From assembly GCA_015179025.1 (NCBI GenBank), contig WHUX01000067.1, positions 207,035 through 271,034 on the forward strand: DNA of 64,000 bases, written 5' to 3'. Every line of letters begins with the position of its first letter. The first letter of the stretch is position 1. The position numbers and the translations under genes were made by a program. The stretch comes from Terfezia claveryi. Lineage: Eukaryota; Ascomycota; Pezizomycetes; Pezizales; Pezizaceae. Shown here piece after piece: positions 21,352-57,050 of the stretch. The notes beneath the pieces were generated by a model, which saw nothing but the letters and a program-made list of their open reading frames with translations, was not told where the DNA came from and did no database searches.

Positions 21352-21600
21352 TATCAGCTAAAAAAATTCTCCATCATGACGCAGCAACTAGTTTTGTTCT
21401 ACTTGGTATACCACCAAATTCCTGCTGCCTCTCATGCACCCTGTTCATACTACAAAATTTCTGCTCCCACTCATGCACCCCATGCGCATCCTCAAAATAT
21501 ATGCTCTATACCTTGAACACTACCAAATTCCTACTGCCTCTCATATACCCTATATGTACCCTCAAACTTCAGCAGAAAAAATAAACAAATCTGTATCCGG
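21352..21600. repeat. Left terminus and subterminal repeats of T2
   Basis: After the terminal TATCAGCTAAAA, imperfect units containing ACCAAATTCCT(G/A)CTGCCTCTCAT and ACCCT/ACCCC recur at about 21410, 21465 and 21525 with a spacing of roughly 55 bp. Equivalent but GC-rich repeats sit at the ends of T1 and T3. Confidence 0.6.
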
Positions 21601-22102
21601 ACGCATCAACTACTTTTATACCATCCCACTGCTGTATTACAATTTTCTGCTTACCTCTATACGCCCCCACACATGCTCTCCTAATATTGGCCTGGTACCT
21701 GTTTTATATCCGACACTTCATGTTCTTTGTAGCTCTTCTCTCAACTGGTCACAAGTTTATTATTTCCTAATTATAAATCATATTCTATGTCTCTAAGTCT
21801 ATTCTATTATTTACCAACCAACTTTCCCTCGGCTCTACTAGTATCAAATGCGCAATCCCTTCTATTTGTGATATCTTAACTATAACCCCTTTCCTACTCA
21901 TCGGCAATCCAACGCGAACCATCCCTTCTGTGCCCTACACAGCATTCAACCCAATACATTGAAGCAGATTCACATGTACCAACCGGTGCACCATTCCTGC
22001 TATAGTTATTACTTTGAACAATGCATTGATTCGTCCTAGTATTCGACCATTCAGCATCCCTACTGGTGCCTCATCCAATGCATGCTGTCTCCTTACCCAT
22101 AT

Positions 22103-24690
22103 CTAATTGTATCTTTCCTTCCTGTGAAATTTTTCGGTGCATCTAGCATTGTGCAAAATGAACCCTTCTCCACTGAATTTTGGTACTGGAATTTGAAGCA
22201 CCCTATATGAATGAATTTCCTGAACTAATAGCTCGGTAGGGTCGGAATCCATGCTTCTAACTTCCTGCCTTAAAAACACTTGCGTTGTCAGTACCAGATC
22301 TGGCAAGCCAGTTACACGCTCCAGATCCTCGAGGCTGGATATTAATCCCAACTCAATTTTCCCCTACAACTTTAAGTAGACCTGTTTTCCGACACCTAGT
22401 GTTACATCTCCGTTTTGCCTAACCTGGTTCCATAGATTAAGTGTCAAGTCCTTCATAGCAAAAGTATGATCCCTCGTGTAGGTAGTAACTATCTGTGGTA
22501 TTGCATTAACCCTATTATTTCAATGGTAAGCATCCTTAAGGCCTTTATGCATAGCTTCACTGATATTCGTGGAATATTGAGCTAGAGCCCCAAACTTCGG
22601 AATCTGTTCGGCATAATGGGAGATTAAATGGATTTTTGGGAAATTGAAGTATGCCCCTTCTTGTAAAATCTGATTCACCAATTCCCGATGGTACAAGGTA
22701 TTTTCTTGATGCATCCTAATCTTTTCCAATGCCCTGAGGTCTTCAACCAATGATCCCGCTTGTTCTTTCAACAAATCCTTATGTGCTTCTGCAGCAGCCT
22801 TTCTTATTTTCTTATCAGGACGGAACCTAGAAAACACAGCTTTAGTTTCATGAAACACATGCAAATATTCTTGTAAATAAGAAACTGTCTTATCCATATG
22901 ACTAGGATACTGAGTCATAAGATAAAAGTCAGTGATGCTACGTACGCAGCGAATTGCTTGGTTGAACTCCTGTACCTGACCTCCGGTGGGCCGTGGTTGG
23001 TTGGCCTTCTGATGCAATGCTGCGGTAAATGTTCCAAGAATGACTTTACCAAAGTTCTGCATTTCCTTTCCCGACCATTGTGAAACAACTCGGTATCTCT
23101 TGGTCGGAACTGAAAATCCGGAGTAGAGAGGCAACCGATACCAGACATAGTCAAATGCATTAATCCGCTCATAGTATTCTAGAAAACCTTGAATCCAATC
23201 CATTAAATGATTTAACACTCCTAGGAGGATATTGTGCAAAACATCTGCTCAAATGAGCTTAGGCGGATTTATATTTGGGACTGACCACAAGGCATTTTTG
23301 ATGTTTTTAACGCCGTTTGCTTTCAAACTGACAGCGTCGGAATCATTGTACCCTGTGGTATAATTTTGATGTAAGTGAGCTGGATAACCACTTCCTGAAT
23401 ACTCACCAAGCTTCTTGGTCGGAATTGTGCAAGAAGGGTAGCAGTTGTTTGCAATACCATAGATTGTAGTATTTTCCATATAGTCAGCGAGCCAACAAAA
23501 GAGCTTAGGAAAGCATAAGTGTACATTCTCATCAGCACAAACCATGTTGTAGCCTTTCTGACATCTCACGTCAGATAGCTGTTTTAGCAAATGCGCCAAA
23601 ACATTATATTTGATTTGCAATGCCTGAATTTCCTGCGTTTCTACTGAATACCCAGGTATTTTGTTGATTTATTTCGGGCCAATCGGTAGTAGTGCAATTG
23701 GTATCCAGGCATGCATCGTATGTGTATTGCATATGGAGCTTCCGATATTGCCTATACTCATATAAACAGGCCATAACTTTTTGTCTCCAGAGAAATTCGT
23801 TAGGTGAGTTTCATCTGATGCTAGTAAAATCGAAACAAGTGTTCTGCCTTCAGGTAGCAAAGCCTATCCGTTTCAGTTAGTTGGATATACAACGTAGTAT
23901 ACACAAATTGCTCACCTAAGTGTCTTCCCACCACTGTGTAGTATGGATCTCACTATATACCCTGTTCCCTTCATTGTCGTATTCTTGCCACGGGCCCTAG
24001 GCCATCTCGCTGGCATAAACCTTTTGGCATAGAAGGTACTTCACTGCTGCAATAATATTCCGATAATAAAAGGCCACCCCTTGAGTAATGGGTAGTTCAC
24101 TGTTCCTGAGTACCAGGAAGGTTCATTTGCTGCTACGTCAATAAGCTTATACATTGTATATGCTGACCGAAATTGAATCTCGTGTGTTGGATTGAGGCCT
24201 TTTAAGAGGTTATCCTTGAAAAACTGGTCGATCTTTGACTGTGAGGTCTTTGTAGAATTGAAGAAGTATGCCAGTCGATAATCAATTGAGGTGCGGAATG
24301 GAGCAAACAAATTGAAGTTTCGGTCTTCCTCCAGAAATACATGTGGACATATTGGGTTGCCTGCACGTGGATAGGTGATTGCATCAATATGCTAACTTCC
24401 TTTATTGGATTTTGGTTCAATACAAAAAGTTCGAGCCTCCCTATCAGATCCCTCGCTATGGCATAAATCAGAGTAGTAATCAATATCAGCAGATATAATA
24501 TCTGTAAAATTGACTTCATCTATATCATAATCTAAATTAGTAGTATCTCTGGTATTGGAGAACCAATGCTTTCGAGACGGTGGCAGTGGCCCATTAAGAT
24601 CCTTCACATTTTTTTCGGGATGAACCTTCTCTAAATGATTTGTATATGCTCCAGCTGAAGTATAGAATCATGAGCACCATTGGCATAGGG
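22103..24690 (-). pseudogene. CMC/Plavaka-like transposase of T2, damaged
   Basis: Read on the minus strand. The N-terminus near 24690 has a C2H2 finger (CQWC ... YTNHLEKVH). Then come a middle part (24310-24041), LTNFSGDKKLWPVYMSIGNI (about 23800), MVCADENVHLCFPKLFCWLADYMENT (about 23540-23450), and the long block 23239-22520 with MHNILLGVLNHLMDWIQGFL, RCVRSITDFYLMTQYPSHM and FPKIHLISHYAEQIPKFGAL. The C-terminal piece is 22351-22103. The same blocks in the same order occur in T1. This is the pattern of Plavaka transposases (CACTA/CMC superfamily) known mainly from fungi. Stops (for example in CQWCS-stop and after IGPK) and frame changes show it is not functional. I could not assign the DDE residues with certainty. 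Confidence 0.75.
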
Positions 24691-26599
24691 TTTTGTATCT
24701 GTTCATTTTGAAATGTCACGGAGGTTGTAAAATGTTGTAAGAGACAGATTTGTGGTGTAATATTTTTATTAACAGAATCTCAGGGAATAAGCTTCATAAG
24801 TACCAAGGCTCCGATTGCACTGAATAAAGGATCCTATCTGACGTGATGCATTGGATTTTGCCAAGATCGACTGCGTATGATACTCTTGGCCCCACCCCCC
24901 TTCCTAATCTTCTCTCTACTTACTTTCTTCCTTCTACCCACACCAAATACACAACCTTCGCATCCTTCCTTACTTCCCTCTACCATGGAGACTACCCTCT
25001 ACCTCTGGAGTCGGGAGAGCTCTTACCTTCATCTTGTTGCATCTAAATTCAATGCCGCAATCAGCCAACTGAAGCCACTGCGATCACGCTGGCAAGAACA
25101 ACAAGATAAGGCTGGAGTGCTTCCTATCCTTGGTTAAGGTCCTATCTATGACCCTCACTTCAACCATGCCACTTCTTTGCCGAGTTCAGGGCTGCCCAAG
25201 GCAATACTTCACTAGATACAAGTTCCGACTTCACTGGTTGGAACACTCTCATAGTTTATTATGTTTGCTCTCCCCCTTTAATAAAACTACAATTTCCAAC
25301 CTGAACAAAAGAATCACTTCCTGCATGAACCTTGATATTGACTCTTCCATCGCCCAAATCATTAATCCTTTCCTCCCTCATCCTTCCTCTCTAACTACGT
25401 TTCTGTAGACATTCGCAATAGGCATGCCGTTGTCTTAGCCGTTGTCTTATCTGCTGCCTCTGATTTGACTTTGCAGATTGAGAAGAAGCTAGATTTGGAG
25501 GAGCTATTGGAGTTAGGGGACGCATTGGGGTCAGCGGAGGCACGGGAGGGGTTGGAAATAAGACTGCGAGTGGCATATTTTCTTGGTTCTCTAATTCATT
25601 GCTAGTTATAGATAATCCGACTCTAAACGTTACTTTGCTCACTTACCATGTGGTGATGGTGACGTGGGTGGTACTTCCATATCCTCCTCCATATCCTTAA
25701 CATCGGTAGTTAATTCCGATACACTTTGGAGAGGAGCTATCCGCTTATGCCGGCTTCGTGTTCTATATAATGTCTTCATTGGGTCTTCATTAATACTAAG
25801 AAAATATTAGCTAGGACTAAGACTCTCACTCCAATTATGGGAGGGCTCTCGCTCCAATTATGGGAGAGCTCTCACTCCAATGGGAGGTCTCTCACTCCAA
25901 TGGGAGGACTCTCACTCTAATGGGAGGGCTCTCACTCCAAAGGGGTCTCCTAAGGGGGGCTCTCAACTAAAAGGGGGCTTTCTCAACCAAAGGGGGGCTT
26001 TCTCAACCAAAGGGGAGCTTTCTCAACCAAAGGGGGGCTTTCTCAACCAAAGGGGGTTTCTTTGCTAAGCTAAGTAGGACATACCTATTAGTACTATCTT
26101 TTGGAGATAGCTCTAATGGTGGAAACATCAGTTTCTGGTGAGGTTGACGTGAAGGCATAATGATAGTAGTAGCAGAATAGCTAATAGTCAATAATAGCAA
26201 TTAATGTATTGCAGATGTTGAGGAGAATAGGTTTATATGTATTAAAAGATTTGGAGGGGGGAGCAAATCAAACCTGTGTCAGTGCTATGGTCTCAATAGT
26301 CTCATACCTAATTGGGAAGGAATTGATGTGAGTAGCATGTACCGCTAGGTATTACAAAGATCTACAAGACAACAGCATATTTGCAGTGCACTTAGAATCC
26401 AACTTAAGTGGTCGGATGACTTCTGCAACAGGGGCTTGATACAGTGGCTCTAAATGAATTATTAATATTTGGTAGTAGTGCTATTACATACATATGCAAT
26501 ATTCTAGGTCTTTCTGACTTAGGAAATTTACTAGAAGGGGTACAAGCTGCTTTCTAAATAGGCTTAGATTTGGGATTGCACTACTAAATAACTTGAGTC
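24691..26599. other. T2 region between transposase and Ty3-A insertion
   Basis: No gene I can name. A plus-strand frame at 25130-25408 has a C2H2-like spacing (CRVQGC, 12 residues, HWLEHSH). A minus-strand frame 25642-25391 is proline-rich and is preceded by an open stretch ending in a donor-like CATG/GTAAGT near 25645. Either could be a decayed third cargo gene or the divergent start of something lost. The right half is dominated by the minisatellite at 25828-26052. Confidence 0.4.
25828..26052. repeat. Two-phase minisatellite
   Basis: About 19-25-bp units of the type CTCTCACTCCAATGGGAGG (25828-25940) grade into 21-bp units of the type CTTTCTCAACCAAAGGGG (about 25965-26052). The change of unit within one array suggests one block evolved from the other. 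Confidence 0.85.
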
Positions 26600-26604
26600 T
26601 AGCA

Positions 26605-29976: not shown

Positions 29977-30290
29977 CATCAGCAAGAAAAAATTGGCGTC
30001 CTGACGCCCTGCAGAGGCGTCCTGACGCCACCCCTTTTCCCCTGCCGCTCGTGGCGCCTGGGGCGCCCTGTAACTCCTCTTTCAGACCTCTTGCCTCCCG
30101 GAGCGTCTGGGGCACTCTGAATGTACTATGCCCCTCTCATCCGCTCCAGGGCGCTTAGGGCACTCCTTTGTGACGTCTTGCCTCTCAAGGCGCCCAGGGC
30201 GTCTTGTACGTGACTTTCCCACCTTCTGCCTCTCAGGGCACTCAGGGCATCCCTTTCCGACCTCCTGTCTCTCACCATACCCTCTGAATA
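29977..30290. repeat. Left terminus and subterminal repeats of T1
   Basis: The terminal CATCAGCAAG is followed by two copies of the palindrome-like GGCGTCCTGACGCC (29994-30007 and 30015-30028). Then come about five units near 48 bp (30050-30290), each with GGCGCC(T/C)(G/A)GGGCG(C/T)C and ending CTCTTGCCTCTC-like. Open frames across this block are by-products of its composition. Confidence 0.75.
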
Positions 30291-30506
30291 CCTTTTCCGC
30301 CAACCTCCTCTCTCCCTTCCCTAATGCTAATGCGTTTCCCCCCTCATGTCTTGTTGCAGCCCCTAAGTGTCCCCTCGCGACCCCTCGCGACCCCGTATGT
30401 ACAACACTGCACGCTTTCCACACTGGACCTCTACAGTCTTCACTTCGATGTTGTATTGTTACTCTTCAATTCTTCTTTGCCTAGCTAGATACAGGGCCCA
30501 TCGATC

Positions 30507-33500
30507 TTATTCTCCGTACAGGTCATTCCACGTATTATAATCAATCCTATTGTTTACTAGCCACAAATTTCCTTCCTTCAACCCTATCAGATGTGCCATC
30601 CCTTCAATATCAGCAATGCGCAATATATTCAATCCCTTTCCATTCTCCTGCCCCTCCATACAAACCATTCCTTCATCCCCCCCTGGCCTGCTTGAACCTT
30701 GTACTCGAAGTAATGATACAAGTGCCACTTTATGGACCCTGTTGATATTATCCTGCACACTGAAGAGCCCTTCCAGTTTGCCAACAACTTTCCCATCAAG
30801 GTCACCCCTTGCATCGCCTGAGCGCCCCCTCCGCCGCACCCACACCCAATCCGCCCTCGGTTGACCTCTCTTGCGAAACGGTTGTCCTGCTGTCCACCGG
30901 ACATTGTGCGTCTGTCTACCTTCGCCCTGGAATTGTGGTACGTCGACTGTTAGCTGTGCATAATAGTGCACAGGGTAACGTGCAACCTCTTCCAGATTCA
31001 CACAGTACGAGCTACCAATGTTCAGCCTCAGGTATTCATAAAAGTGCTCCGGAAGCTGCGTGATACCTAGCCTTGTCGCAAGCGTCTGCATAGGAGTTCC
31101 TTCTGGACTATCCGAAGCTTGTTTACCTCCTAATATAGGGCCCCCGGCTTTCCCTGCCTCTTTTGCCGTCTTCCCAACGTCTTTGGCAGACCCTCTCCTG
31201 ATTACACCAAGAATTTCGCTACTGAACTTATACTCCTGACTCCATACCTCCATATTCAATTCCCTTATTCGCAATACCTGTTCAACCGTGATGACATCAA
31301 GTATTTGCTCGGCTGCATTCACACAGTTAGATCTTCGATAGGCATCTTTCAGCGGCTTGTGTAGAGCTTCCGTAATCTTGGTGGAATACTGAGGGAGGCT
31401 CCCGAAATCTGTGATCTGTGTACTATAGTGGGATAGCATATGCATCTTCGGAAAATTGAAACCGGCGTTGCTCAGGACATCCTGAATCACCTGCTGTCTA
31501 TCCTGTCGTTCTTCGATTGCTATTTTCTTCTGTTTTGTGGCACTAAGCTTGAAATATTCCTCCAGTTTTGCTTGACGTGCCTCAAGTTGATCCACTGCAA
31601 GCTCCCTCGAAGCCTCCTTTGCGTCCTGGTGATCCTTTTTGGTAGCCCGAAACTCACTGAAGACATGTAAGTTATCATGGAATTTCCGGAGGTATTGATT
31701 CATATAACATATCGTCTGGGGTGTGTGACTCTGGTATTGTGCCATCAGGCAGAAATCCGTGATATATCGCACACAACGAATTGCGATTTTGCTATCTGCT
31801 TTCGCGCCTGCTGAGAGACTTGGGGCAGCTGTTATTGGATCATGCAGCGCTGCTGTGAAGCAAGCCAAAATCACATGATTAAATCCCCGTATTTCGGTCC
31901 CACTCCACATCGTAATCTGCCGATATCTCTTCTGCAGTGGTCGATACCCTGGATATGGTGGGGTCTGTTCCCAAATCCTATCGAATACCTCTAAGCGTTC
32001 GTGTTTGCTCAGAAACTGCTCTATCCAGCCCATCAGATGCTTGAGAATCCCAAGAAGAATATTGTGAAGTATATCATCGCGAACTATGTATGGTGGCTCT
32101 ATACCTAGAACTCGCATCTGTACCCAGAGCGCGTTTTCAAAGGGCTTTATTCCAGCATCATCTAAACTACCCATATGTTAGCCATGTTTAATCATATCCA
32201 TGTTCATCAGCTACATACCTTTTTAGATCCCCTGCTCGATACAGATTCTCATAGTCCACGTGATTATGCATGGCGAGTGCTTTCTTTGGGAGAATTCCAA
32301 GTTCCTGTGGACTTGTAATACACACGGGGCAGCGATTGATTTTAATACCATGGATATTGACATTTTCCATATGGTCGGCAAGCCAGGTAGAGAGAATTGG
32401 CATGCACTTTCTAACCTTGCCGTCTCTACAGAGGATGTTAGTCCCACCTACCTACGAAAGTTGTTAATACGGACCCTCATGACCCCATCCAGGATTGCTT
32501 GCCTACTTTGAATATTTTTGTTAAGGGCAACAGGATACGTGAGACAATCTGGTGTTGTACTCTTAGTGCATCATATTCCTGGTCTTTTGTCGTGAAACCT
32601 GTGACCTTGTTCCTCTTGGGGCCGATTGGGAAAAGGCCCATCAGGATCTACGCTTGGGCTGTTGGCCGATTTCGAATTTCCGCGCGAATATTGCCAATAC
32701 TCATGAACAAGGGCCATAATTTCTTGTCCCCAGAGAAATTCGTAAGGCAAGTTTGATCGGATGTTAGCAGTATAGGTACGAGGGATGAGCCAATTGGCAG
32801 CGTCTTCTACAGTCTCATTAGTATCTGTATTTATATTCACTGGATAGGTTCTATACTTACGTCCTCCACCACCAATCGCTGGAATTCATTTCGGTATATA
32901 CACAGTTACCTTCATCATCAAATTTGTGAATTGGCGAGAAAACCAGATGTTTGGCAAAGGCACGCTGTTGAAGTAGATATCGCAATGTATCCTCGAGGTC
33001 CCTGTAATAGAATGCACAGCCCTTTTGGAGGTGAAAGTCGACTGTTCCTTTCTACCAGTTGGGCTGATCAATCAACTCACGCATCTTATTTCTCCACGTA
33101 AAACCGGACCGAAAATGGACTCCATCACCCTCGGAAAGACCTGGCGGTAGCAGATTTTCCTTGAAAAAATGATCAATATTTGTTAATGAGGTCTTGCTTT
33201 CATGGAAGAATCTGGCAAGCTTGTATTCATGCGCATTCTGGAAAGGCGATATCGGATTAAATTGAAGCCGTTGCAGATCGTTCAAAGGTATTGTCGCAAT
33301 AATCTTTCCAACTTCATACTCTGCTGGCAGACATTGTGTAACTAGCATAGACTTCTGCCGGACTACTTGAACAACACAATGCGGATCTAAAAACAGATTT
33401 CGAACGTCAGTGTCCTGTTGTTCCTCAGATATTTTATAGACTCATACCATCCACTACTTCCACACCAGCGGTCCTCAATTCCAAAGCCCCCGAACACTGA

Positions 33501-33778
33501 TCGGGGGGCGTACTCAACACCGCCCCAGTTTCCCGGTGTCGCTTTGTGGGTTTGGTCGGAATCTCTTTGGAGATTGGAGAAATAGAGCGTGTTCGTTTCC
33601 GCAAGGTTGGCATTCTCACGGATACCGAGGAGTTTGTATAGAGATGTCGATGTTCTTCCTGGTCCTCGACAGGATTGTGACGATCTGTGGCTGAAGCCGA
33701 CTCCGAATGTTTGGCTCGCAAATGTCTCCCATACTGCCCAGCTTTTTGGAATTGAAAGTCACAAGACCTACAACGCAT
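30507..33778 (-). pseudogene. CMC/Plavaka-like transposase of T1
   Basis: Minus strand. The start at 33778 gives a C2H2 finger (MRCRSCDFQF ... GRHLRAKH) followed by a basic linker. Further exons: 33348-33052 (LARFFHESKTSL ... GFTWRNKMRELI), about 33050-32880 ending MNSSDWWW, about 32800-32480 (LTNFSGDKKLWPLFMSIGNI), and 32403-32188 (LADHMENVNIHGI). The long exon is 32174-30507 (555 codons: DDILHNILLGILKHLMGWIE, RCVRYITDFCLMAQYQSHT, FPKMHMLSHYSTQITDFGSL). The family moves DNA by cut and paste, and the finger probably contacts the ends. A TAG at 32650-32648 replaces a Trp codon that T2 retains (HAWIPIALLPIGPK in T2), and further stops follow, so this copy looks inactive. Exon edges between the blocks are approximate. 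Confidence 0.78.
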
Positions 33779-34709
33779 TCTGGATGTTAGTTTCCCTGGC
33801 CACGCGACTCAATAGTAGGCAGCACTTACGGTTACTCCGATAAGTAAATTATGTAGGCTCTGGACTAGGCTTTGGCGTATTCATGGTGTCTAGTCTGGTT
33901 CACGTCGCGATAGAGTTGGCGCGGAAGGAGGTCGGTTGGCACTAGGTTATTGTCATTATCAGGCTATCCCATATCTAGTTAGGTGGTCATGACTGGTCGG
34001 TCACCATGTATACTAGTCCTGCAACCATGCTTGAGGCTACTGCCACCAGCCTCTGGGGATCCACCTGCCTAAACCGGATGGTTTCCCCCTGTACACTAAG
34101 TTGAATTGGACTGGCTAGTCTTGATAAAGATAGACAAGAATGACCCCTCCAGCACGAACAAAGATATTACCGGATAAAGATGATGCACACAAAGAAATGC
34201 TTCAACATGTCTCCACCCAATACAAGATACTCTTTGTAATTGATGCCTATATAGTATTTTGCATTAAAACATGTTCCTACACTGACTGGCCACATCCCAA
34301 TTGGACGGCCTATAGATCTTTGATGTCCGCAACCAGATCATAGCAAACCGAAAATATTGAATAGTGACAGTTTGTTACAGCCTGCATCATAAGCATAGTT
34401 ATTACCTGACAAACAAAGAGTCTAGGGTATAATACAGGTACAGACGAGCACATCTGCCCTTCCCTCCTCCAAACCACCCCACAGCACCTCAGAATAGAGG
34501 ATTGATATTTCTCGCAGTACACGGAAGGTAGGACCAGGACCGTATAGAAAAGTATCAGGAGTTGACATCAGGACGGCTAATTCATACAAGCTTGATTAAG
34601 GTATTGATCAAGTAGTTGTTAGCGGTGATCATACCAGTTTAGGTATGGATGCAGAGACACTCAGAGTACCTTACTGGCATGCGTAATATTAACATAGCTC
34701 CTTAGGAAC
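33779..34709. other. T1 divergent intergenic region between transposase and gene A
   Basis: About 930 bp between the transposase start (-) and gene A start (+), so it should contain both promoters. No gene seen. A direct partial repeat of CTCTGGACTAGG / CTAGTCTGG type occurs near 33850-33900. Confidence 0.5.
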
Positions 34710-36817
34710 ATGCCTCCGAAGAAACGGAAGGTAGGGAATGTCAGCGATGGGGGTGGCGATGGTTCGGGAGACGATGATCATGGCACCAAACAGTTTGCCG
34801 ATAAACTTGGGTTCAATGACCCCGGTATCCCAAAGACCCTTTACCAGATATGGCGCTCATGCATGCAGCGCGCGATGGCCGATTTTGCTATATTCGGACC
34901 TGGCGAGTCAGGTCGAACCAGATTCGCCGAGTTGTGTGAATGGGGTGCTGCACATCCTGCAATGGCTCTGAAGGGGCAGATGAACTACCAGCACCAGGAG
35001 TACCGCAGTACGGTGAATCAATTAATGCAGGATGTAGCAAAGAAGGCTCGCAAGTCACGCCAAGCTATGTGGGAGACCATAGCAGAAGCGCGAGCCTCAT
35101 ACGAGGAGGATTATCCGGGGATTGTAATTGAACCCATTGGTCGACTACCAGATATGGGGCGACCTAACGCAGGACCTGCATACATGCCAGCGAACCAAGG
35201 AAATAAGAAGGCAATAGCAACGTCTTCCGCAGAGCGACAAAGAGCTGCTGCTCGAGCAGCAAGACCTATAGCTAGCCCGCTACCACCTACCACCGTACCA
35301 GCACCAGCCCCCCCCACACCAGCACGAGCCCCCCCCAAACCAGCACGAGCCCCCCCCGTACCAGCGCGAGCACCAGGACGAGCGGGAGTGCCGGGATAGG
35401 CCGTCTAGCTCCTCCCAGACCCCCCCCCCGTTAGATCACATGTACCCATGCCATCCACTCCCGGAAGCTTCCCAGATGCGCCTAGAGTCCCGCTTGCAGG
35501 GGCACCACCAGGGGTTGCTGGTGGTCCTTTAGTACCGTCATTGTGCTATCAACCTCCTCTGGCAGGCTGGGCACCAGCTGTGGGAGGCCCTCCAAATACA
35601 GTGCGAGTACACATTATCAAGCCGGAAATGCATGGTCCAGACCCTCTATATGGGGGCTGGATATTCAGTTCCGCGACCATCTCTTCTACAGTGGTACTAG
35701 GTTTGCATAGCATGGCGGGTATAGTGGCAGCTGTTACCCCATTCATTCCACCACGATGGGTTATCCGACATATCTATGGGATGGACGTCGCCGGACGATT
35801 TGTGCCGATTTCCATGGATTATATAGTCGGTGGCATGCTTATGGCTCATGGAGGGCCCAACATGATGGATTTCCAGATTGAACTGGACCCCATTGGCCAG
35901 GTAAATACCTAAGCACGGTCTCCGAGGCACGGAATCCTCCGGTTGTAGCCCCCAGAAATACATCAGACACCAAAGGTGCTGCAAAGCCAACCGTAACAAA
36001 GGGTAAAACAACGGTTGCGGCTGCCAAGGATCAACTATCTACAAAAGGGAAATCTACGAAAGGTACGCCGGCCAGTCTGGTGCCGTCAGCTAAGCACACA
36101 CCAATTGGTAGGGCTCCTGGAGTAACTAAGCCTGCCAAGGGTCCCAAGGAGACTACGACTGGTAAGGGGACAACGAATGCCAAGACGGGAACGACTGCCA
36201 GGGGTATCCCAGTAGCGAAGGCTACCCCAGCCGCTAAGGGTACATTTCCCAAGGTCATAATTCCAAAGCGGAAACAATGACCTACCCAATCTCCAAACGA
36301 CCTCAAGTCACCAAGTAAGTTGATCTGAACATGAATTGAGGCCGATGCTAACAAATTTCTATAGGCAGGGAGGATGCCCGAGATCCTCGTCCAGCGAGGG
36401 AGGTGGCGGATTGTTTAAGGTTTCGGAGTCTCGCGCCACAATTTTGGCAAGTGGGTGGTTCAGGTGTTCCACGCGTGCCACAGACCGCACGGGAACCTCT
36501 TTTGAGTAAGAGAAGACGTGTGATGGCTGGTAAGTCCGGATTGAAGCTAGTCGAGGAATTACACTAACATGTCACTAGGCTGTCGATCTACGGCCGACAT
36601 ACAGGAGCAGGCGGGGGTTCGTGGGGGTCGTCTGGGTAGGGAAGTTGCAGGCGATGAGGATGAGGGTGACGATGAGGATGAGGGTAAAGATGAGGGTGAG
36701 GATGCTCAGGGTGAGAATAATGAGGATGAGGGAGATGTGGATGAGAGGGGGGATGTGGATGAGTGGGGGGATGTGGATGAGGGGGATGTGGATGAGAGGG
36801 ATTTGGATGAGGGTTAG
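34710..36817 (+). pseudogene. Cargo gene A of T1: unknown protein with shared ~100-residue domain
   Basis: Starts MPPKKRKVGN, a basic NLS-like opening. A helical region follows (IWRSCMQRAMADFAIFG ... LMQDVAKKARKSRQAMWETI), then an Ala/Pro linker of PARAPP units (about 35270-35390). The domain at about 35605-35895 (VRVHIIKPEMHG ... IPPRWVIRHIYGMDVAG ... DFQIELDP) also occurs in gene A of T2. A Lys/Thr-rich tail follows, then two exons joined by clean introns (36315-36364, 36530-36578), and a repetitive Asp/Glu tail ending at 36817. Damage: two TAG codons (35397-35399 and 35409-35411), both one C-to-T step from CAG; a one-base shift near 35890; and TGA at 36278. I do not know this family. The basic start and acid end suggest a nuclear or nucleic-acid role, which is inference only. 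Confidence 0.6.
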
Positions 36818-43800: not shown

Positions 43801-46135
43801 TTGCTATCGACGTGGCTCATAGCAATTGGCAACAACACAAAAGGATGCACTGGTCCTTTTGCCATGATTTTTACTGTCCAGTTCATGGCAGCTCCCACGC
43901 CATGAACAACCGCATGTTCACCGTCAAACATGTGCAATTTGCAACCACCACGGACATGGCAGTCTGAACTGTGACCTGACAGCCTCAGTTCTTAAGAAGG
44001 AGAAGGAATTCCTTATGACTTGTATTGCGCATATCTAGCCGCAAATGAGCCTAAAAGGAACTAGCACCAGTACAACAAACGCCAGCTTATCCACCTCCAC
44101 CAGCTCTCAGCTGTGAAGAAGCTATCCAGGAAATCGGAGAATGGGCAAAAAGATGGATTGCCAACAAGCCGACACAGCCCACTCTCTAACCCAGCATTCA
44201 GTTCAGTAACTTTACCGAACAGATACCAACCGACAAATGGAATAGGAGATCATGAATACTCCTGTCCCCCACAACAACCATGGAATGCACCTCAACAACT
44301 AGCTGCAACCGCTAGCAGCAGTAACGCAATTCCAATCAACACCGCCGCCGTCACCACTCGTTCTAAAAAGCGAGTAGCCATTGATGAAGATCTACCCTCT
44401 TTTATTCAAGATACCAAGACCTCCAGACAGCGTTGTGATTTCTGTAAGTTCTCAGGATATAATGCTTCTACATGTAAGGAGAAGAAACCCACCATCAATG
44501 ACTTCAACACAAGGATCGAACCAACCCTCAACAAGCTCATTGAAGAGAAACACATCAGCGACGGATGGGTAGACGACAAGGACTACTTCATCACATACTG
44601 GCTTGACCAAGGAACAGGTATGAAAGCCGCATATCAATCATGCATGAGAGTATGTCCTATCTGGAAGAACTATTATGATACCTTTGTGAATCGTAAGGAT
44701 CATAGAAGAAAAGACGGATTTTTGTATGTCAAGAACTGACAAGGACAATGGAGACTAGTCTTGCCCTCTACCTTTAACATCGAAGGTAAGAACTATCTCG
44801 AATTGGTTATTAAAGATGCACATGAAGCAACCGCTCATGGTGGCTTTGAAAAAATGATGAAATATCTTACTGACCGATATGATTACCAGTCCTTTGCAGA
44901 ACCAACTAAGGACTATATCAGAAGTTGTGATACTTGTCAACGGACAAAGTATTCCAACAAGGCGCCACTTGGACTCGTAACCCTATTACATGTACCAAGT
45001 AGGCTATGGACTGACATATCGATGGATTTTCTTAAAGTAGCACCTGTGTTTACTAAGTGTTTAATTTTGTACCCGAATATTCCTGTTGAAGAAGATCATG
45101 TAGTTTGTATTTCACGACTTTGGACGATTGTCGATAGACAATCAGGATTCAAGTTTCTTATTCCTGTCTCAGATAATTTCACAGCAGAACAATGTACTGC
45201 TACCTTTGATACTCATGTAGTCCCGACTATGGATACCCTTTTTTATTGTTTTTGACCGTGATACTCTTTTTATGTCAACGCACTTTCAAGATTGGGCTAG
45301 GAATAAAGGAATCAAGTTGGAACCGTCCACCGCATATCATCCACATGCAGACGGACAATCGGAAATTGTGAACAAAGAAATTCTACAAGTAGCAAGAGCC
45401 TGTAAAATCGAAGGATTTGATTGGCTACAGAAATACCAGAGATACAGTTGAAACTTAACTCTAGGTATAATACCGCTAGACAGAATAGTCCCTTTTCCAC
45501 ACTATTTGGATTTAATGCACATCTTGGCATATCGATACTTCCATACCCCATTAATGCATATGTACCAGCGAATGAACGTCATGAGGTAACATCTAAAAAC
45601 CTATATGACGCCAAGAAGACTCAAGCATCTCAAGCGAACAAACGACTACCCAATATAGCCAAATTTTCAGTCGACAACAAGTTATGCTTTCCTCAGAAAA
45701 CATCAACCTATCGAATGTCTCACTCAAGCTCAAACCAAAATGGCTAGGCCCATTTCCCATTATTTCTAGTAATCGGAAACGTAATAACTATAGCCTAGAC
45801 CTATCCAGTCAACCTGACCTCCACCTCATATATAATACTTTTCATATTAGCAAACTCAAACCATACTACAAAAACGATCCCACCAGTTCCCTCACAGACA
45901 ATCTCAGGAACCAGACCAATTCAAGACGATCGTTATGAAGTTGAAAAGGTATTAGAATTCAGAACAGCTCTCGAACTGGAGAAAGACAATATAAGGTCAG
46001 ATGGCTAGGATACACTCCTAAATATGATTCCTGGGTAAACGCCAAGGATATCACCACCGAAATTCTTCAAGACTTCTGGACGACTGGAAGCATGGAAGAT
46101 ACATTCAAGAGACGTCGAAGGACTAAAGGAAAATA
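40767..46135 (+). pseudogene. Ty3-B gag-pol with extra zinc knuckles and chromodomain
   Basis: 40767-43244 is open for 825 codons: end of capsid, CCHC knuckle CLWCWNPGHSYKDC (about 41260), protease region, reverse transcriptase with IYIDDIIIFS (YxDD intact) and RNase H. A TGA at 43242 (one step from CGA, in LRRW) ends it. An unusual segment of about 1.4 kb follows, with cysteine-rich parts (see findings). The integrase zinc finger is at 44761-45255 (HEATAH ... CDTCQRTK) with the start of the catalytic core, then more integrase in shifted frames to 45938. A C-terminal chromodomain (QYKVRWLGYTPKYDSWV) lies near 45990-46040. Several shifts and stops make it non-autonomous now. Confidence 0.82.
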
Positions 46136-46324
46136 AGGACCACGAACCAGAGATGAGACCCGAGCTCTTATCCAACAAGAACGAGATAGAATCATGAGTC
46201 AAGGAAACACTAAGGATATTCATGTTAATGCTAATGTATTAACAATGCATCAAATCTTAGGACGTATGGAAACCAATATGGCAGAGGAAGGAAGTAAGGA
46301 TAGGAAATCCTTCTATGTGGGAAG

Positions 46325-47002
46325 TGTAATGGAGAACGTTATCTCATTGCTTATATAATTGATTATATACTTTTTATTTCCTATATTACTACTATGTTAT
46401 GTAACTAAGCTCTCGGTTGAAGGACTAGCCTTCGACCACCTCCTATTGCTTTATAAGCGTCCATAATACGCAGAATTTGCCATGGGAAGTTCCATGGCAC
46501 TTGCCATATGAAGACACCCTCATTATGGCCGCGTGACCTCTATTTAAGGCGTGTGACTCATTACTATGGCCACATGACCATCGTTTATGGCGTGTGACTT
46601 ATTACTATGGCCACATGACCTCTTTTGTACAGCGTACCACTTTCTAGTGTGCCACCCTTTATTGTATTTATTTCCTTAGTCATCAGATCTCAGAGGAGTA
46701 TAAATAGGCCACTGGATTACCTCTGGAATCAAAAAGAAAGACAAGAAGCAACCAAGCAAGCCTTCAGAGCAAGCAAGCCTATATTCCAATCAGATCAAGA
46801 TCATATAGCTTAGATAGCACAAATCATATAAGATAGATTACACCAGTTAATTACTGTTCCCTTCGGGAACGTCCCACATAGTAATCTCCCTACCCTTCTG
46901 AGGTCTTACCTCAGCAGAACTGAAATACACAAACGTCCGTGCCTACGGATATAGATTGTATAAACGGTACCGAATGAATACTGTCTAGTACCATTCATTA
47001 CA
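46325..47002 (+). repeat. 3' LTR of Ty3-B
   Basis: 678 bp, TGTAATGG...CATTACA, followed by TSD TGGTG. TATAAATA at 46699-46706. Confidence 0.95.
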
Positions 47003-48224
47003 TGGTGAAAGGTACCCCAAGCCAAAAGCAAAACCGATCAATCACGCAGTTCACAGGGTTTCTGCGAGATATGACAGAATCAGCCGGCAACAGAATAGAG
47101 CACATTACGCTGTTTGAGGAGCCATTCCCAGACCCTCAGCGTATGGAAGACATGCTCGATAAAGTCTGGCGAGAAACGGAAGTAGAATATCAGAAGGATC
47201 ATTCTCGGGTCAACAAGATTGATTCATATGTAAGTGACAGTATCGTATTTGTCTTTGAGTAGACACTGACGGAGAGTGGGTCATAGCTTCGGAGTGTGCA
47301 ATCGCGGACACGATCACACCTGGTATCGGAGGCAAAGAAGAACATTGCATTCTTGTATCAATTTGACCGGAATACATCGAAGCAATATATCCAGGACCAC
47401 ATCGGTCGGTTGTTAAAGCGAGATCAATTCACATGTGCTGAGAGTCTTCGCAAGGTATATGGAATAATCTGCTAGAGAACTTTCAGGGGCTGACTTGACA
47501 CGATACTCTAGAGTTGTGGTTATCGGTTTCGGGCGCAAGAAGCAATTGACCTTATCCATTATCAGTATTTCAATGGCAAGAAGAAACTCGGCAATATCGA
47601 CCCAAGTTTCATTATGCATATAAATAGTCCCTTCATCTGTTTTATCTTCACTGCCCTATACCATGCGCTTAGCGGCTGGGAAAGTGGGGAATGTGCAATT
47701 ACGTTTGAGTTTAGTTATGTCAATTGCAGTGGTATGTGATAGTCCGGCAGTAGACTAATCCGGATTGCTAACGTGTGGCAGATGTCTATAAAAGGCTGCT
47801 GAGTCAATGGCGTCAATACCCAACAAGCGTACAAGAAATGATTGTGAAGGTGACACAGTCCGAGATAGTAAAGAAGGGACAACAGAGTGGGAAAAAGGTT
47901 AGGTGGCAGTAGGATGCGGCATATGAGGTGGATGATGAGGAGGTAGCAGAGTTTGCGAGAAAACTTTCAGCAGATCTGAGGGAAGCGAGTGTTAGTTTGA
48001 CTCAAGGAGGAAGGTATCAGGAGGACCCTGGCAGTACGATGGAGGAGGAGATTTGGGGTAGCGAGGGGCCAACATATATAGAGGAGGAAGAGGATGACAG
48101 TGGAGAAGGAGAGAAGAATATTAGGGATGAAATAACGTCTGTAGAAGAGGACGAAGGGGAAAGTATGCAGTGTGCACAGAGGAGTACAAGGGGAATCGGG
48201 GGCTGGGAAGAAGAAGATGATTAG

Positions 48225-48699
48225 GGATGTGCTTAACCGACTTCTCGGGCAAGTAAGGCAAGGATATTGGAACAGGGTGGATATGTTGTTTTTATGACTT
48301 GGTTGTTTGTGTCTGGCTTTGGCAGGTTTCTGTAGCAACAGCTGGAGGACTTTAATGGATACTTAGATTCAGGGGAGATGTTTAGGGAAGGGGTTTGTTT
48401 AGGTTTTATATTCGTAAGAGTGTATAGCATTTGGGGTCAACAGAGGGGATGATGGGATATTGGTATTGGGATGTTAGATTAATACAAGAGGATCGTTCAG
48501 AGGGCAGCATAGGGACAATAAGAGATTGGGAACATACGGAAAGTGGGGGCCGGAATGAATTTGAATATACATTGCAAGAAGTGGATCTGGAATATAACGT
48601 GAAAGAGCCTGGAACTGCGGGCGGCCAGAATGTGGAATACTATCCGTGGACAGGGAAAGCGAAAGATCATTTAGAACTCCAAGAATCCAGAACTGGATC
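48225..48699. other. T1 sequence downstream of gene B
   Basis: Probably the 3' UTR and spacer of gene B. The small frame at 48431-48703 has no recognised similarity. Confidence 0.45.
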
Positions 48700-49138
48700 C
48701 TAATCTAAACGTATGGCGCCGGACGCCAGGGGATCCAACAGCATGGCGCCGGAACGCCAGGGATCCAACACCAGGGCGCCGGGACGCCAGGATCCAACGC
48801 CATGGCGCCGGGACGCTAGGGATCCAACACCATGGCGCCGGGACGACATGGTACAACAGGATTGCGTCCAGACGCCATGGGTCCAACGGTATGGCGTCCG
48901 GACGTCATATGTCTGAATGTTAGCATCAGGACGCCATAGGTCTGGATGATGCAGTCCGGAGACACCGGATGTATACGGCTGGCGTCGAGAGACAGAGCGG
49001 GCGTCCGGACGTCAAGGGTCCGGACGATGGCACCTGGGAGCCAGGGATCGAGACCATGGCTTTCTAGATTGTCAGTTTGCCAATTGAGGCACCTGCGGCG
49101 CTAGAGACACAAATGACAAACTAGATTCTTTCTTGATG
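48700..49138. repeat. Right subterminal repeats and terminus of T1
   Basis: About ten units of 25-30 bp built on GGCGCCGGGACGCCAGGGAT and, nearer the end, GGCGTCCGGACGTCA (48713-49010). Each unit has a short palindrome (GGCGCC, GGCGTCCGGACGTC). They match in type the GGCGTCCTGACGCC motifs at the left end. The last 25 bp carry CTAGTTTGTC-like sequence (reverse strand) shared with T3. Confidence 0.8.
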
Positions 49139-52384: not shown

Positions 52385-52629
52385 TAGCACCTTTGTAAAT
52401 GACTTGCAAAAGCCCTCCAACCTCGTAAGTTGGAATCTGTGTATATTACATACTTTCTATTGTGCCGTGGTTATTTGTATTTTGCTGTTGTGCACTCTAC
52501 TTCTGTTTACCATATGCTACCTAATACGGTAGTATCACAACATCCACACACAACAGAAAGTATGTAGTACACTCAGATTCCAACTTACAAGGTTGGAGGG
52601 CTTTTGAAAGTCGTTACACAAGTGCTAGA
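52385..52629. repeat. Foldback/MITE with about 80-bp inverted arms, entered by Ty3-A
   Basis: The arm 52390-52470 (core AAAGCCCTCCAACCTCGTAA) is the reverse complement of 52545-52629 (core TTACAAGGTTGGAGGGCTTT) with about 75 bp between them. The outer end of the right arm is GTGCTAGA. The matching TCTAGCA of the left arm lies at 26598-26604, on the far side of Ty3-A. So Ty3-A inserted a few bases inside the end of this hairpin, using TAGCA as its target. Confidence 0.7.
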
Positions 52630-52840
52630 TATTAACACAAAGGTTATAGTCTTATGCAGGTCATAGTCTTATGCAGGCCATAGATGGCTATGTAGATTGC
52701 CAACCGCTTGAAGCAAACATGTCCAATAATTAACATAAAGGTCATGGCCTTATGCAGGCTATACAGAACTGGAGTGACTGGCCATGTTGATTGTAGACCA
52801 AGCAAATATGGCCTACTCTTATGTCCAACTTCATAGAGTC

Positions 52841-52848
52841 TATAAATA
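52841..52848 (+). promoter_or_regulatory. TATA box upstream of T2 gene A
   Basis: TATAAATA, about 200 bp before the first ATG at 53045. A consensus donor GTAAGT follows at about 52981, suggesting a 5'-UTR intron. Confidence 0.4.
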
Positions 52849-53044
52849 CCCCTATAAATCCGTGAAACAATTATTCTTATTAACTATTCACAATACTTCC
52901 CGCGATCACAACTTGTATACCTTCCCGCCATCACCACTTCCTATTTCGTTAACACCTAATTAACTAACAACATAAATAACGTAAGTACCTTTTAAAGCAT
53001 AGTTTCTAATGGGGGTATCTAAAATTCCAACGTAGTTCGTCTAA

Positions 53045-54250
53045 ATGCCATCTGCAGTGTAAGAAGTTAGCCAGGCAAAAGCACTATTGGAGTAGGGGGA
53101 GCATGACCCCCGGTACTCCCAATGGAGGAACGGAGTTAAGGGGTGGGCACGGACTAATGAGATAACGGGGAAAAGGCAGGCTGGTAATGCACTCTGGCAT
53201 TAATTCAAAACCTATGCCTAGCAGGAGACTGGGCTGCCTGCATCCAGAATTGCCCTAATCTAAAATAGGGCAGCGGCCATCAAAAGAGCAGCTGAGACTG
53301 CTCTCGATAAGATTTTGCAAGACGTGCTCAAAAAGGCCAGAGATACAGAGCGGGGGCACGCATTAGCCCAAGTAGCAAACCTGGCTGCTAATACTCCAGA
53401 TGTCCAGTTTGGGGGGGCCGACGCAACTGGTCGAAATGTAGAGGACAATGGTCAGAAGGGCTTCTGAAAGCCTGTAAGACTATTCCTCATCGATCCAGCC
53501 CGAGGCAATGAGGTACAGGATAATATTAGTAGGGAGTATAAATGGGATGAAGCTCCGAGCAACTGTATTGTTATTTTGAGATCGGCATCTCTTTTAGAGA
53601 TTGTGGATAAGATCCAAGAAAGAATCCCAGCAGGAAGAAAGGTGTGGGCTATCTATGGGGCACTAGAGAACCCAAGCCCAGGCAACACAATCCCTCCTGC
53701 CACACGTCTGCAAACCGACGAAAAGGTACAAGCCTTTTTAGAGCTAACCTCGTCAAAACCTGTTTAGGTACAAGTTATCCTTTATAGGGATCCAGCTTTG
53801 GTGCCTCCGGTTGCGGAAAGTCCACCGGCAGATGATGGTGCATAATTCAAGGCTGACTTCCTTGATCCAGCAGAGGAGTATATAGACCCTGCAGAGAATT
53901 CCGACTCTTTGAGTCGAAATCTTACTGGCTTTGCAAAGCGTACATTCCCTCGCACGTAGGAGGGATTCGAAGTGCGGAAGCTAAAGATCAGGATGTGGAT
54001 TAAGAGACAAAAGAGAGCTTTGCGTGCAATGAAGAGAAAGGAGCAGAAAAAGTACCCAGCTGAGGAGATCTACAATTCCAACTCTGAGGGGTGGAATATC
54101 CAGCAGGGACTGGATCCCCAACCAGAGAATAGCAGGGAAATGGTGCTAGCCAGGGGTCCGACCGCTGCCGGAATGACAGCTATGCGAGCTATGCTGGAAG
54201 TGGATCCTGCAGCTCCCCTAGCGGATAGGAATACTCGCAGGGCGAGGTGA
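53045..54250 (+). pseudogene. Cargo gene A of T2, damaged
   Basis: Begins near ATG 53045 and contains in-frame stops in its first 250 bp. From about 53267 it reads [25 protein letters not shown], matching the LMQDVAKKARKS region of T1 gene A. The shared domain follows at about 53475-53790 ([12 protein letters not shown] ... [20 protein letters not shown] ... VQVILYRDP). It lines up with the T1 domain by position and pattern (hydrophobic strand, P-x-x-x-V-x-x-I-Y-G, closing strand). The tail is basic (RMWIKRQKRALRAMKRKEQKK) and ends DRNTRRAR at 54250. Stops include those at 53464-53470, 53766 and 53842. Function unknown. Confidence 0.55.
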
Positions 54251-54356
54251 CAGGCGGCACATAATAAAGGAGTAAGGGTAGCCAATGAGGCATGGAGGGC
54301 TTTGGGATAAGGTTGGTATGTGGAGGCAGGCACAGAGGTCTGTGCCAGGGTCTGTT

Positions 54357-54460
54357 CATTGGGATTTTTTTTTGGGTAGTTGTTGGGATTTTTTTTTGGG
54401 TGGTCGTTGGGATTTTTTTGGGAGGTGGTTGTCAGGATTTTTTTGGGGGGTGGATTTAGT
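54357..54460. repeat. GGGATTTTTTTTTGGG short tandem repeat
   Basis: Four imperfect units of about 26-32 bp (TTGGGATTTTTTTTTGGGTAG type) between T2 genes A and B. Confidence 0.85.
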
Positions 54461-54548
54461 TAGCAATTTGAGATTTTAATAAAGGCATTGAACGCTGTGT
54501 GTTGGAATTTTACCCTTCCAAACCTTCTATACGAGTCTTTCCTCAACA

Positions 54549-56031
54549 ATGGTTCGAAAATCATCCTCTCAATAAGCCCCTCTGCTAGCAGAGCAGGCAA
54601 GCCGTAAACACAAGGCCTCCCAAGCAATAGCTCCTGGTATTGGACCATGGCCAAGAATTGAAACTGGGGTTGTATACAGGAATGAAATCTTGTTCAATGA
54701 AGAGGAATGTGGATTGTAATATTTTGGCTATATTGTAAGCTAATTCTAACGTAGGATAACGGAAATGAATCTTCATCTGATCCCCGTCCGATTCAGATGA
54801 GGAAATACTCATTGACGCTGCTATGCTTGCACCAGGCATTGGAAAAGGCATGCGAGCATTTTCGGCGATTCTCAGTATTTTGCAATCCTTTGCCAGTACT
54901 GCAAAAAAGATTGTGACAAAATACATATTATACAGGTAACCACTGTTAACACTCGGGGAAATACTCCTGCTGATACAGCATGCTTGGTCCAAGGCCCAAA
55001 CGGAGCCATGCTATGTGGAACGAGTAAAGGAGGTGGATACCTTTGTATAGTACCGCATCCGTTTTGCTGCGTCGACTTGCTAATTGGAAACAGCTCAAAG
55101 CTGTACAATCCCGAACAAGATCACATCTTATATTTGAATGTCGAGCCAGCATCACGAGGGTGTATGATATTGGCCGGTTACCAAAGGAAAGCATGAAGAC
55201 CCAGGTTGAGTACTTGCTAAATAGAGATCGATTCATCTGTAGGCAAAGCAGTCGTAGTGTAAGTTGATGGAGTTGCAGATCCCAGTACGAGTAGCCTTAT
55301 AGTCCAAGATCCAACGCTAATAGTCGGAAAGGAACTTAAGGGTCGCTTCTGCACCGAGGAGATTATTGCGATTATATATCAGCGGTATTTCCAAGACTCA
55401 AAAATGCAGGGGAATAGGGACCCAGATTTCCTAAATAAGGTAAATGGTGTCTTCATATACTTTGTGGCATCAGCCATACGTCATAGTTTGAAGGTATGGA
55501 GGAAGGGCGAGATTGCTCCGGTGATGCAGGAGGTTAAATATGAGACTGCCTGGTGTAAGTTGTGCATGACCTATAATGAGGGGTGAAAGTACTCACTGTG
55601 TTGGAAAATGACTAATATGAAATAGGCACATATGAGAGACTCAAGAATTATGGGAGATACATCCAAAAGTAATACAGGAGCTTATTGTGAATAACATTAA
55701 GGCTGACCTGGTACATCGAATTGCAGCTCAAGTAAGGATTTTGGAACGAGAACCCATTGACGCACCACAGGTCGAAGATGAAGCCAAATATGAGGCAGAA
55801 TTGAGAAAGGAGCTAGAGCACTCGTACGACAAATTGAATGTGCCAGCACACAAACGCCATCGTGAAGGGAGCCAATTAAGGAATTCTTCCATAGAGTTGG
55901 CAGAGCCATTGGACCCGATTGTTGATGATGAACTAGAGGAGAGTGGAGATATAGACGAAGAGGGTAGAGATTTGGACAGTGGGAGCGGGGATTTGGACAT
56001 TAATTTGATGGAGCGGATACGGAGTAACTGA
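54549..56031 (+). pseudogene. Cargo gene B of T2, damaged
   Basis: Starts MVRKSSSQ followed by TAA (one step from CAA). The core matches T1 gene B: LKAVQSRTRSHLIFECRASITRV and VEYLLNRDRFICRQ (55085-55260) against LRSVQSRTRSHLVSEAKKN and GRLLKRDQFTC. Then RYFQDSKMQGNRDPDFLNKV, YFVASAIRHSLKVWRKGEIA (55384-55530) against the T1 stretch HYQYFNGKKKLGNIDPSF ... ALYHALSGWESGE. After an intron, YERLKNYGRYI, a one-base shift near 55665, then VIQELIVNNIKADLVHRI, and an acidic C-terminus ending at 56031. Order, introns and acid tail are as in T1. Assigned as DUF6532-like by recollection of the family pattern only. Confidence 0.6.
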
Positions 56032-57050
56032 ACACGTCGGATAGGGACTAGAAGTGAATATAGTAGGGGGAGGAAGGGTTTTCCTAGATCAGTTCCCAGT
56101 TAGTTCTGTCTCCATATGGTAATTGGTTTTGTTTTTCTTGTCGGTCGGTATTAGTTCTTTTTCTCTTGTCGCTTGCTTGTTTCTCTCTGTGTTTCACTCC
56201 ACATGTTTTTCTCTACATGTTTCTCTCACTGTGCTTTTTATTACTAGTAATTTGTGGCTGGGACGTGGATATAATCGGGTGAGAGGGGGGAGGACGTAGC
56301 GCGTTGGATTTCATTTGGTGGTAGTTTGTAGGTGTGGCTATGAGGTTCAGAATGTGTTTTTTAGTCATGGAAAATAGAAGTCAAACAAAGAAAACCTCGT
56401 GTTTGTGCCAAGAATGAGTGATCGATTTAGAACGAAGATAAATTAAATCACAAGTATCAGAAGAGCAATTGTTAGGAAGGGGAACTTAGAAACGCGATAT
56501 GTCGCATTAAAAACTTCAGAAGGAGAATTGTAGGAAGGGAAACTTAGGAACGTGATGTGTCGGATTGAAAACATCACAAAGACAATAGGGAGAAGTTCAA
56601 GCCAGGAAGACGCGGGATAGGAGGTGTAACTTTAAGGAGCGGATTGTGTGCATATCGAGTTGGGACGGTGAGATATATGAGTGACAACAGGAAAAGGAGG
56701 AGAATAGGTTGGGTGAATGTAGGAGAATGCAAAGGGTGAACGCATGCTTGCAAAGTCAAGAGACAGAGGTAGGAGTAGAAGAGAAGTGAGGCTGAAGCGG
56801 AATGAGGGGAACGCAAAACATTGGATTGGAAACTTAGCAAAGCGGATAACACTGAGATATTATGGGAAAGAGGTATGCATAGATACCGTGGTAGAAACAG
56901 TGTAAAGGTAACATGGTAGTTTAGGGAGTTGGAAGCACCAGAGGTACGCCAGGAAGGAACACGGAATACTAGTGTATTACAAGGCTTAGTTCTGCAATAG
57001 AGCACTAGGTGCACCTGGTGCACCTGGTGCAAATAAACTCGTTGCTGATG
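56032..57050. repeat. T2 right end: spacer, 60-bp duplication and palindromic terminus
   Basis: 56457-56517 and 56518-56577 are an imperfect tandem duplication of about 60 bp (AGGAAGGG(G)AACTTAG(A/G)AACG core). 57006-57031 holds GGTGCACCTGGTGCACCTGG palindromic units next to the terminus TTGCTGATG. No gene supported in this kilobase. Confidence 0.65.

Follow-up and report, generated by a model that had tools for sequence, protein, structure and literature searches.

A 64,000-nucleotide stretch of the genome of the desert truffle Terfezia claveryi (Pezizaceae; 72.6-Mb assembly), referred to here as the window, contains two DNA transposons, T1 and T2, that are diverged members of one large PlavakaB family. 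The standard genes of this family are a transposase and two further genes, A and B, the latter of which, as judged from its domain matches, is a gene for a protein of the Pfam family DUF6532 (PF20149). A and B are almost certainly core genes of the elements and not captured host genes, because their order and strand are kept, the distances between the three proteins correlate and sequence constraint is seen. They probably help the elements to move or to escape silencing. Taken as a whole, an explanation that combines a PlavakaB family, A and B as element genes and a role resembling that of TnpA from CACTA (En/Spm) elements is held here with slightly better than even confidence.

Two nested elements with the same gene order

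T1 and T2 are confirmed as real PlavakaB-type DNA transposons. They are part of a nest that comprises, outermost first, a long terminal repeat (LTR) element, T1 (21352–57050), a Gypsy-type element Y, T2 (29977–49138) and an LTR element X. The host sequence of T1 is an LTR-element copy, with a left flank resembling the LTR and a right flank resembling the sequence from 38627 onward. Y (26605–52384; 5-bp duplication TAGCA) splits T1 between its transposase and gene A into a left part with terminal inverted repeat (TIR) and transposase (21352–26604) and a right part with A, B and the right TIR (52385–57050). T2 is inserted in the reverse transcriptase (RT) frame of Y, whose flanks, with a single copy of AA, rejoin as the RT-like KKGLFEY (read by eye). 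X (38044–47002; 5-bp duplication TGGTG) sits within gene B of T2, where it separates the DUF6532 part from what is probably the N-terminal part. The left part of T2 (29977–38043) carries the TIR, the transposase, A and the probable 5' part of B, and the right part (47003–49138) the remainder of B, subterminal repeats and the right end. Both elements have insertion-free relatives elsewhere in the genome (loci designated C plus number), namely C112 (95% identical to both parts of T1) and C434 (97% identical to the left part of T2 and, over 47004–48504, to the right part), against which the insertion junctions are exact. The net sizes, with duplications counted twice, are 10203 bp for T2 and 9919 bp for T1. 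An earlier note on this DNA had given 10.2 and 9.9 kb together with a common layout, i.e. a transposase on the minus strand at the left end, A and B on the plus strand and then the right end; sizes and layout agree with this description.

The target site duplications (TSDs) are TA for T1 and AA for T2 and, at 2 bp each, match the 2- or 3-bp duplications of PlavakaB. The left end of T1 reads TATCAGCTA, starting with TATCA, where its counterpart C112 has CATCAGCAA; the right end, TTGCTGATG, lies at 57042–57050. T2 begins with CATCAGCAAG (TIR CATCAGCAA) and terminates in CTTGATG, a right end that was set by eye, the C434 stretch used for comparison stopping before it. As a bare 9-mer, CATCAGCAA was rejected as proof of element ends, being no rarer than chance (2 matches, a number reached in 15 of 100 shuffles). 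The ends of T1 and T2 are therefore defined by the TSDs and by the points at which the flanks of near-identical copies cease to match. The clearest ends are those of the recent family represented by C723 and C46, which are 99.8% identical over 9.9 kb in differing flanks, run from CATCAGGAACGA to TCGTTCCTGATG and have the TSDs TT and TA. Both ends were also located in C112 (9906 bp, TSD TA), C202 (11454 bp, TG), C385 (8312 bp, TA) and C231 (10648 bp). A 2-bp TSD is hence present in seven of the eight elements for which both ends were located, including T1 and T2, with C231, which has no matching target duplication, as the exception. Termini of the type CATCA..TGATG occur at both ends of T2, at the right end of T1 and in C723, C46, C112, C202, C231 and C385.

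In both elements, a Plavaka transposase on the minus strand is followed by A and B on the plus strand. The transposase of T1 (21935–24667, approximate limits) is decayed and matches PF18759 at 23252–23668 (3.5e-12) and 23672–23863 (3e-19); that of T2 (30507–33808, several exons) matches the same family at 32191–32451 (9e-11) and 32860–33051 (3.9e-12), and its 556-aa C-terminal open reading frame (ORF) has at least 82 matches in the genome. Mutational decay has left six stops within the A core of T1 and two within its Plavaka match. T2 retains an open C-terminal exon of the transposase and an open first exon of A, but its B is broken by X.

Gene A encodes a protein whose N terminus is helical and whose C-terminal part has a predicted ubiquitin/PB1-like fold. 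In T2 (34707–36280, plus strand), it consists of the helical N terminus (34710–35339), a β-grasp-like segment (about 35481–35909, delimited by eye) and a basic segment; its first segment is 59–96% identical to C231, C171 and C434. Downstream, an acidic, repeat-rich stretch of 15/21-bp units (36551–37039, plus strand) is the probable acidic tail of A, and C723 has an acidic stretch at the matching place. The array of these units in T2 (36644–37034) encodes an Asp/Glu/Gly-rich stretch. In T1, A (53042–54280, plus strand, start and end approximate; conserved core 53045–53737) is 90% identical over 231 aa to the intact A of C112, and an intact 421-aa version is found in C794. A search against the Tri-helical family PF24465 (cut-off 27 bits) placed P0031 (29.0) and P0086 (27.7) above the threshold and P0030 (25.9), C794 (20.7) and C723 (12.4) below it; the A exon of T2 had no match, and the three matches in the own genome were all below the cut-off. 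A sequence search of the PDB with the A profile gave nothing convincing (best E 0.46).

Open copies of A are found repeatedly. C723, C46, C277 and C512 carry identical ones, and the T1-type A is open and 97–98% identical to that of C112 at seven further places (C19, C61, C357, C376, C794, C30 and C446), for which reason the T1-type lineage looks recently active. In C202, C295 and C418, gene A is doubled in tandem, the two copies of C202 being about 52% identical.

The assignment of B relies on matches to PF20149 that all exceed the curated cut-off of 24 bits. T1 B (54755–56031, plus strand, approximate limits) has a DUF6532 domain with 28.7 bits at 55338–55568 (31.4 bits for the exon at 55263–55583) and an acidic tail. 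In T2, a probable basic N-terminal part precedes X (37233–37986, plus strand, approximate limits), in which the ORF 37233–37856 shows 38–94% protein identity to C231, C171 and C434. The DUF6532 domain and acidic tail follow after X (47008–48224, plus strand; 65.6 bits over 47083–47700, 35.4 bits for one exon). The predicted structure of B has a pLDDT of 51, a PDB sequence search with the B profile gave nothing convincing (best E 0.11), and an NCBIfam search returned a single weak match of no weight. A homologue search for B, which was limited by shared words, yielded five proteins. The named protein relatives come from Terfezia boudieri, Terfezia claveryi and Tirmania nivea.

Association of transposase, A and B across the genome

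In the genome-wide analysis, the best 150 of 235 DUF6532 candidates, the best 123 of 598 Plavaka candidates and the best 78 of 573 T2-transposase candidates were scored, as were the best 150 of 214 A candidates with a T1-type query and the best 106 of 169 with a C723-type query. Because only these best matches were scored, genome counts are lower bounds and an absent partner is not evidence of absence. Among the matches listed, to which all of the following locus counts refer, there are 143 DUF6532 loci (149 matches), 184 transposase loci (209 matches) and 205 A loci (256 matches, 150 with the T1-type and 106 with the C723-type query). Both an upstream A and a divergent transposase were present within 12 kb at 60 of the 143 DUF6532 loci, A only at 33, a transposase only at 12 and neither at 38; one or both partners are hence in place at 105 loci. 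The earlier note had proposed to ask whether A and B adjoin Plavaka-like transposases or lie mostly in stable host loci. The latter outcome, which the note would have taken as refuting its interpretation, did not occur. A is located upstream at 93 of the 143 DUF6532 loci, whereas 1000 shuffles of the contig labels gave 6.5 on average and at most 18, and 63 of the 68 A loci with both neighbors within 12 kb have the order transposase (minus), A (plus), B (plus). Likewise, DUF6532 is downstream on the same strand in 97 of the 101 A loci that have it within 12 kb.

Twenty loci were also inspected individually. A is in place in 12 of them (C434, C171, C231, C58, C295, C723, C46, C243, C143, C418, C202 and C112), nine of which have both A and B, the exceptions being C58, C243 and C143. 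Of the others, C262, C363, C438 and C63 end within 3.3–5.5 kb, C120 is interrupted, with its A and DUF6532 found further on, and C211, C773 and C238 have none in place. In C723, C46, C112, C202, C231 and C385, both genes lie within the element ends. For a recheck of initially unpaired DUF6532 loci, the pool comprised 53 of 63 (omitting C301, C443, C526, C536, C551, two on C561 and three on the contig of the window); eight were drawn at random and six examined as 4-kb slices. Four of the six slices had no match, among them C98, which has a scored transposase 12.4 kb away.

The three proteins have also diverged in parallel, as expected of genes that travelled together. Protein distances correlate between transposase and A with r 0.92 (12 elements; 0.90 for the 10 elements left when C434 and C295 are omitted), between transposase and B with 0.98 and between A and B with 0.97 (seven elements each). 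In this set, the first tandem copy of A was used for C58 but the second for C295, C202 and C418, so that the agreement of C58 with these three is reduced. Purifying constraint is clear for A and less so for B. All six comparisons of A indicate constraint, with ratios of nonsynonymous to synonymous differences (pN/pS) of 0.21–0.39, including 0.34–0.39 for three saturated pairs; the corresponding rate ratios (dN/dS) are 0.20 for T2 versus C434 and 0.27–0.28 for both tandem copies of C202 versus C418. For B, pN/pS is 0.26 (T2 versus C231) and dN/dS 0.50 (T1 versus C112) and 0.72 (C202 versus C295, with few changes). Two saturated C112–C319 pairs gave pN/pS values of 0.56 and 0.37, of which the first is probably misaligned (32% identity). 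A is less conserved than the transposase (0.32 versus 0.51 for T2 and C723).

Subterminal palindromes, TET/JBP genes and the possible role of A and B

A 12-bp palindrome close to GCGTCCNGACGC (at most two mismatches), which contains two CpGs, begins 19–20 bases inside 13 of 14 left ends, a position reached by 0.05–1.75% of per-end shuffles; the sole left end without it, C723, has one at 40. T1 carries the palindrome-like site CCATCATGACGC at 21371–21382 (offset 19, two mismatches to the motif), and the left palindromes of T2, GCGTCCTGACGC, lie at 29996–30028 (offsets 19 and 40). A cluster of 11 related palindromes, many of them about 30 bp apart, follows near the right end of T2 (48716–49027). 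In total, the 800 terminal bases of T2 contain 16 palindromes (5 left, 11 right) versus 3 in 9.4 kb of internal sequence. This exceeds all shuffles (mean 1.3, maximum 5), as do 12 in C723 (5 left, 7 right; mean 2.6, maximum 6) and 8 in C385 (mean 1.0, maximum 5). Terminal counts in C112 (3, maximum 3), T1 (2, maximum 2), C231 (3, maximum 4) and C202 (2, maximum 4) were not above the shuffles. Internal counts over 7.5–10.7 kb are 3 in T2, 6 in C723, 12 in C385, 4 in C112, 2 in T1, 4 in C231 and 3 in C202. A further motif, GGTGCACC, was above all shuffles in C112 only.

Some copies appear to be four-gene elements, here in an ascomycete. TET/JBP matches are placed between transposase and A, on the strand of A, at C31:127365–137310, C481:428–10246, C319:11517–25300 and C774:60913–68559, of which the C774 match is below the family cut-off, with no DUF6532 near it among the matches listed. 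In C319, a left end with palindrome is followed by Tet_JBP (37.1 bits), A and B in this order; no right end was seen in the 14 kb examined. Genome-wide, there are 18 TET matches, 8 of them over the cut-off, versus at least 205 A loci. None of the 18 lies within the window and hence none in T1 or T2.

The position of the palindrome suggests a TnpA-like, subterminal-binding role. CACTA elements rely on a transposase, TNPD, and on a second protein, TNPA, which acts on subterminal repeats (PMC2613891, as far as its text was available); by analogy, A, B or both would most simply take the place of TNPA. In such a mechanism, which we advance with a little less than even confidence, the transposase would recognize and cut the conserved CATCAGSAA ends, and A, a putative helical-bundle protein, could oligomerize via its PB1/ubiquitin-like domain. 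A and B, the latter contributing DUF6532 and an acidic C-terminal stretch, may then assemble into a complex on the subterminal palindromes (GCGTCCNGACGC) and thereby pair the two ends and control excision, in the manner of the second CACTA protein. Since each palindrome has two CpGs, methylation could gate the step mediated by A and B, which would explain the addition of a TET/JBP gene in some copies. An extended version appears unlikely as a whole: A and B as an undescribed PlavakaB control module, in which a PB1-oligomerizing complex binds unmethylated CpG palindromes and licenses transposition, some copies carry a demethylating TET/JBP, and DUF6532 is largely a transposon family. Two caveats apply. 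The weakest link in the chain of evidence is that between the A proteins of T1 and T2, for which hhalign gave a probability of 45% (E 2e-4, 94 columns). C723 A detects T2 A (35%, E 3e-19) and T1-type A detects C385-type A (29%, 230 aa); homology was accepted because the profile match coincides with position, strand and a shared layout. Moreover, the palindrome pattern was defined after viewing the ends, and with two closely related pairs among them (T2/C434 and T1/C112), the 13 left ends do not represent 13 independent events.

The main rival explanation gives A and B a mainly anti-silencing function comparable to that of VANC, in which they would bind the noncoding ends and remove or block methylation or heterochromatin, the transposase alone being sufficient for transposition and TET/JBP an occasional enzymatic helper. 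We assign this an appreciable minority chance. VANCs bind element-specific noncoding repeats (PMC10398659, in the accessible text), and the faster divergence of A relative to the transposase as well as the placement of TET/JBP in the four copies would fit. So would the substitution pattern of the older copies, as expected of methylated DNA or DNA affected by repeat-induced point mutation (RIP). Transitions at CpG and CpA dominate where T1 and T2 differ from their relatives and where the two LTRs of X or of Y differ from each other; for T1 versus C112, they affect 25–26% of CpG and 10–12% of CpA sites, at a ratio of transitions to transversions of 13–14:1 and with unpolarized direction. This excess suggests methylation decay or RIP. 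However, the very young pair C723/C46 lacks a transition bias (7 transitions, 6 transversions), TET matches are few relative to A loci, and a recurring palindrome near the tip fits a role in end synapsis equally well. The TnpA-like and the anti-silencing role may even be one, because the site has CpGs, the older copies show CpG/CpA transitions and TET/JBP is present.

Capture of A and B as host genes that ride along without a role is highly improbable. DUF6532 and A are without known function, and the 38 DUF6532 loci without a scored partner within 12 kb would be in line with it, but the same order and strand across the sampled clades, the correlated divergence, purifying selection on A and the repeated open copies are not. 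The claim of the earlier note that A and B serve the element is thus supported by order, co-divergence and enclosure within element ends, the service itself being inferred. That A and B are a single gene, spliced into an A–B fusion in at least some family members, is also rather improbable. They adjoin on the same strand, and the annotated Terfezia models P0044, P0048 and P0058 join A to DUF6532, yet gene callers can merge neighboring genes, A has its own stop in C794 and C385, and in Terfezia boudieri A and B are annotated as separate models (P0003 and P0017, respectively).

Relation to described elements

KDZ and Plavaka elements of fungi with TET/JBP as epigenetic cargo were reportedly described by Iyer and colleagues in 2014. 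Here, by comparison, A and B accompany the transposase as a rule and TET matches are few. VANDAL elements are Mutator-like and not Plavaka. No domain shared between VANC and A or B was found, none having been specifically looked for; the likeness lies in an element-encoded accessory protein and element-specific noncoding repeats (PMC10398659, in the accessible text). The closest described group is PlavakaB (Kojima 2025, PMC12730594), which shares the PF18759 transposase, CATCA..TGATG termini, 2–3-bp TSDs and TET/JBP in some copies. The available portion of that paper names no DUF6532 or A-like protein and reports TET-positive copies from two species of Agaricales only, so that the copies described above would indicate element-borne TET/JBP in Plavaka of an ascomycete. 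According to the same portion, Plavaka belongs to the same broad clade as CACTA. CACTA/En-Spm elements accordingly resemble the present ones in a related transposase clade, short conserved ends, subterminal repeats and a fast-evolving further protein (PMC2613891, same limitation). They differ in having CACTA termini with a 3-bp TSD instead of CATCA with a 2-bp TSD; subterminal repeats at both ends are found in T2 and C723 and are weak in C112, C202, C231 and T1. TnpA is also a single extra protein as opposed to two, A and B are encoded opposite to the transposase, and library comparisons gave no match of either to TnpA.

The earlier note knew of no Plavaka-like element with the A and B pair. 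In the available text of the open-licence papers searched, no account of this pair was found, subscription papers, supplements and Repbase entries lying outside the search. In the portions seen, DUF6532 is listed as a domain of unknown function from mushroom genomes, with no function stated where it is named, and two Ganoderma genomes have it, along with Plavaka and KDZ, among their additional domains. For a protist, multigene repeats of another kind are described, with tyrosine recombinases and a flanking Plavaka transposase (PMC11244446, in part). In the present genome, DUF6532 can thus be placed among the core genes of Plavaka transposons and, if this is true elsewhere, the annotation of DUF6532 genes in fungal genomes should change. 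The role of the extra Plavaka genes becomes testable, given that several loci offer the same open A sequence and that a candidate binding site has been defined.

Outside the nest, a tandem array with a spacing of about 135–145 bp occupies 62832–64000 of the window and runs past its end.
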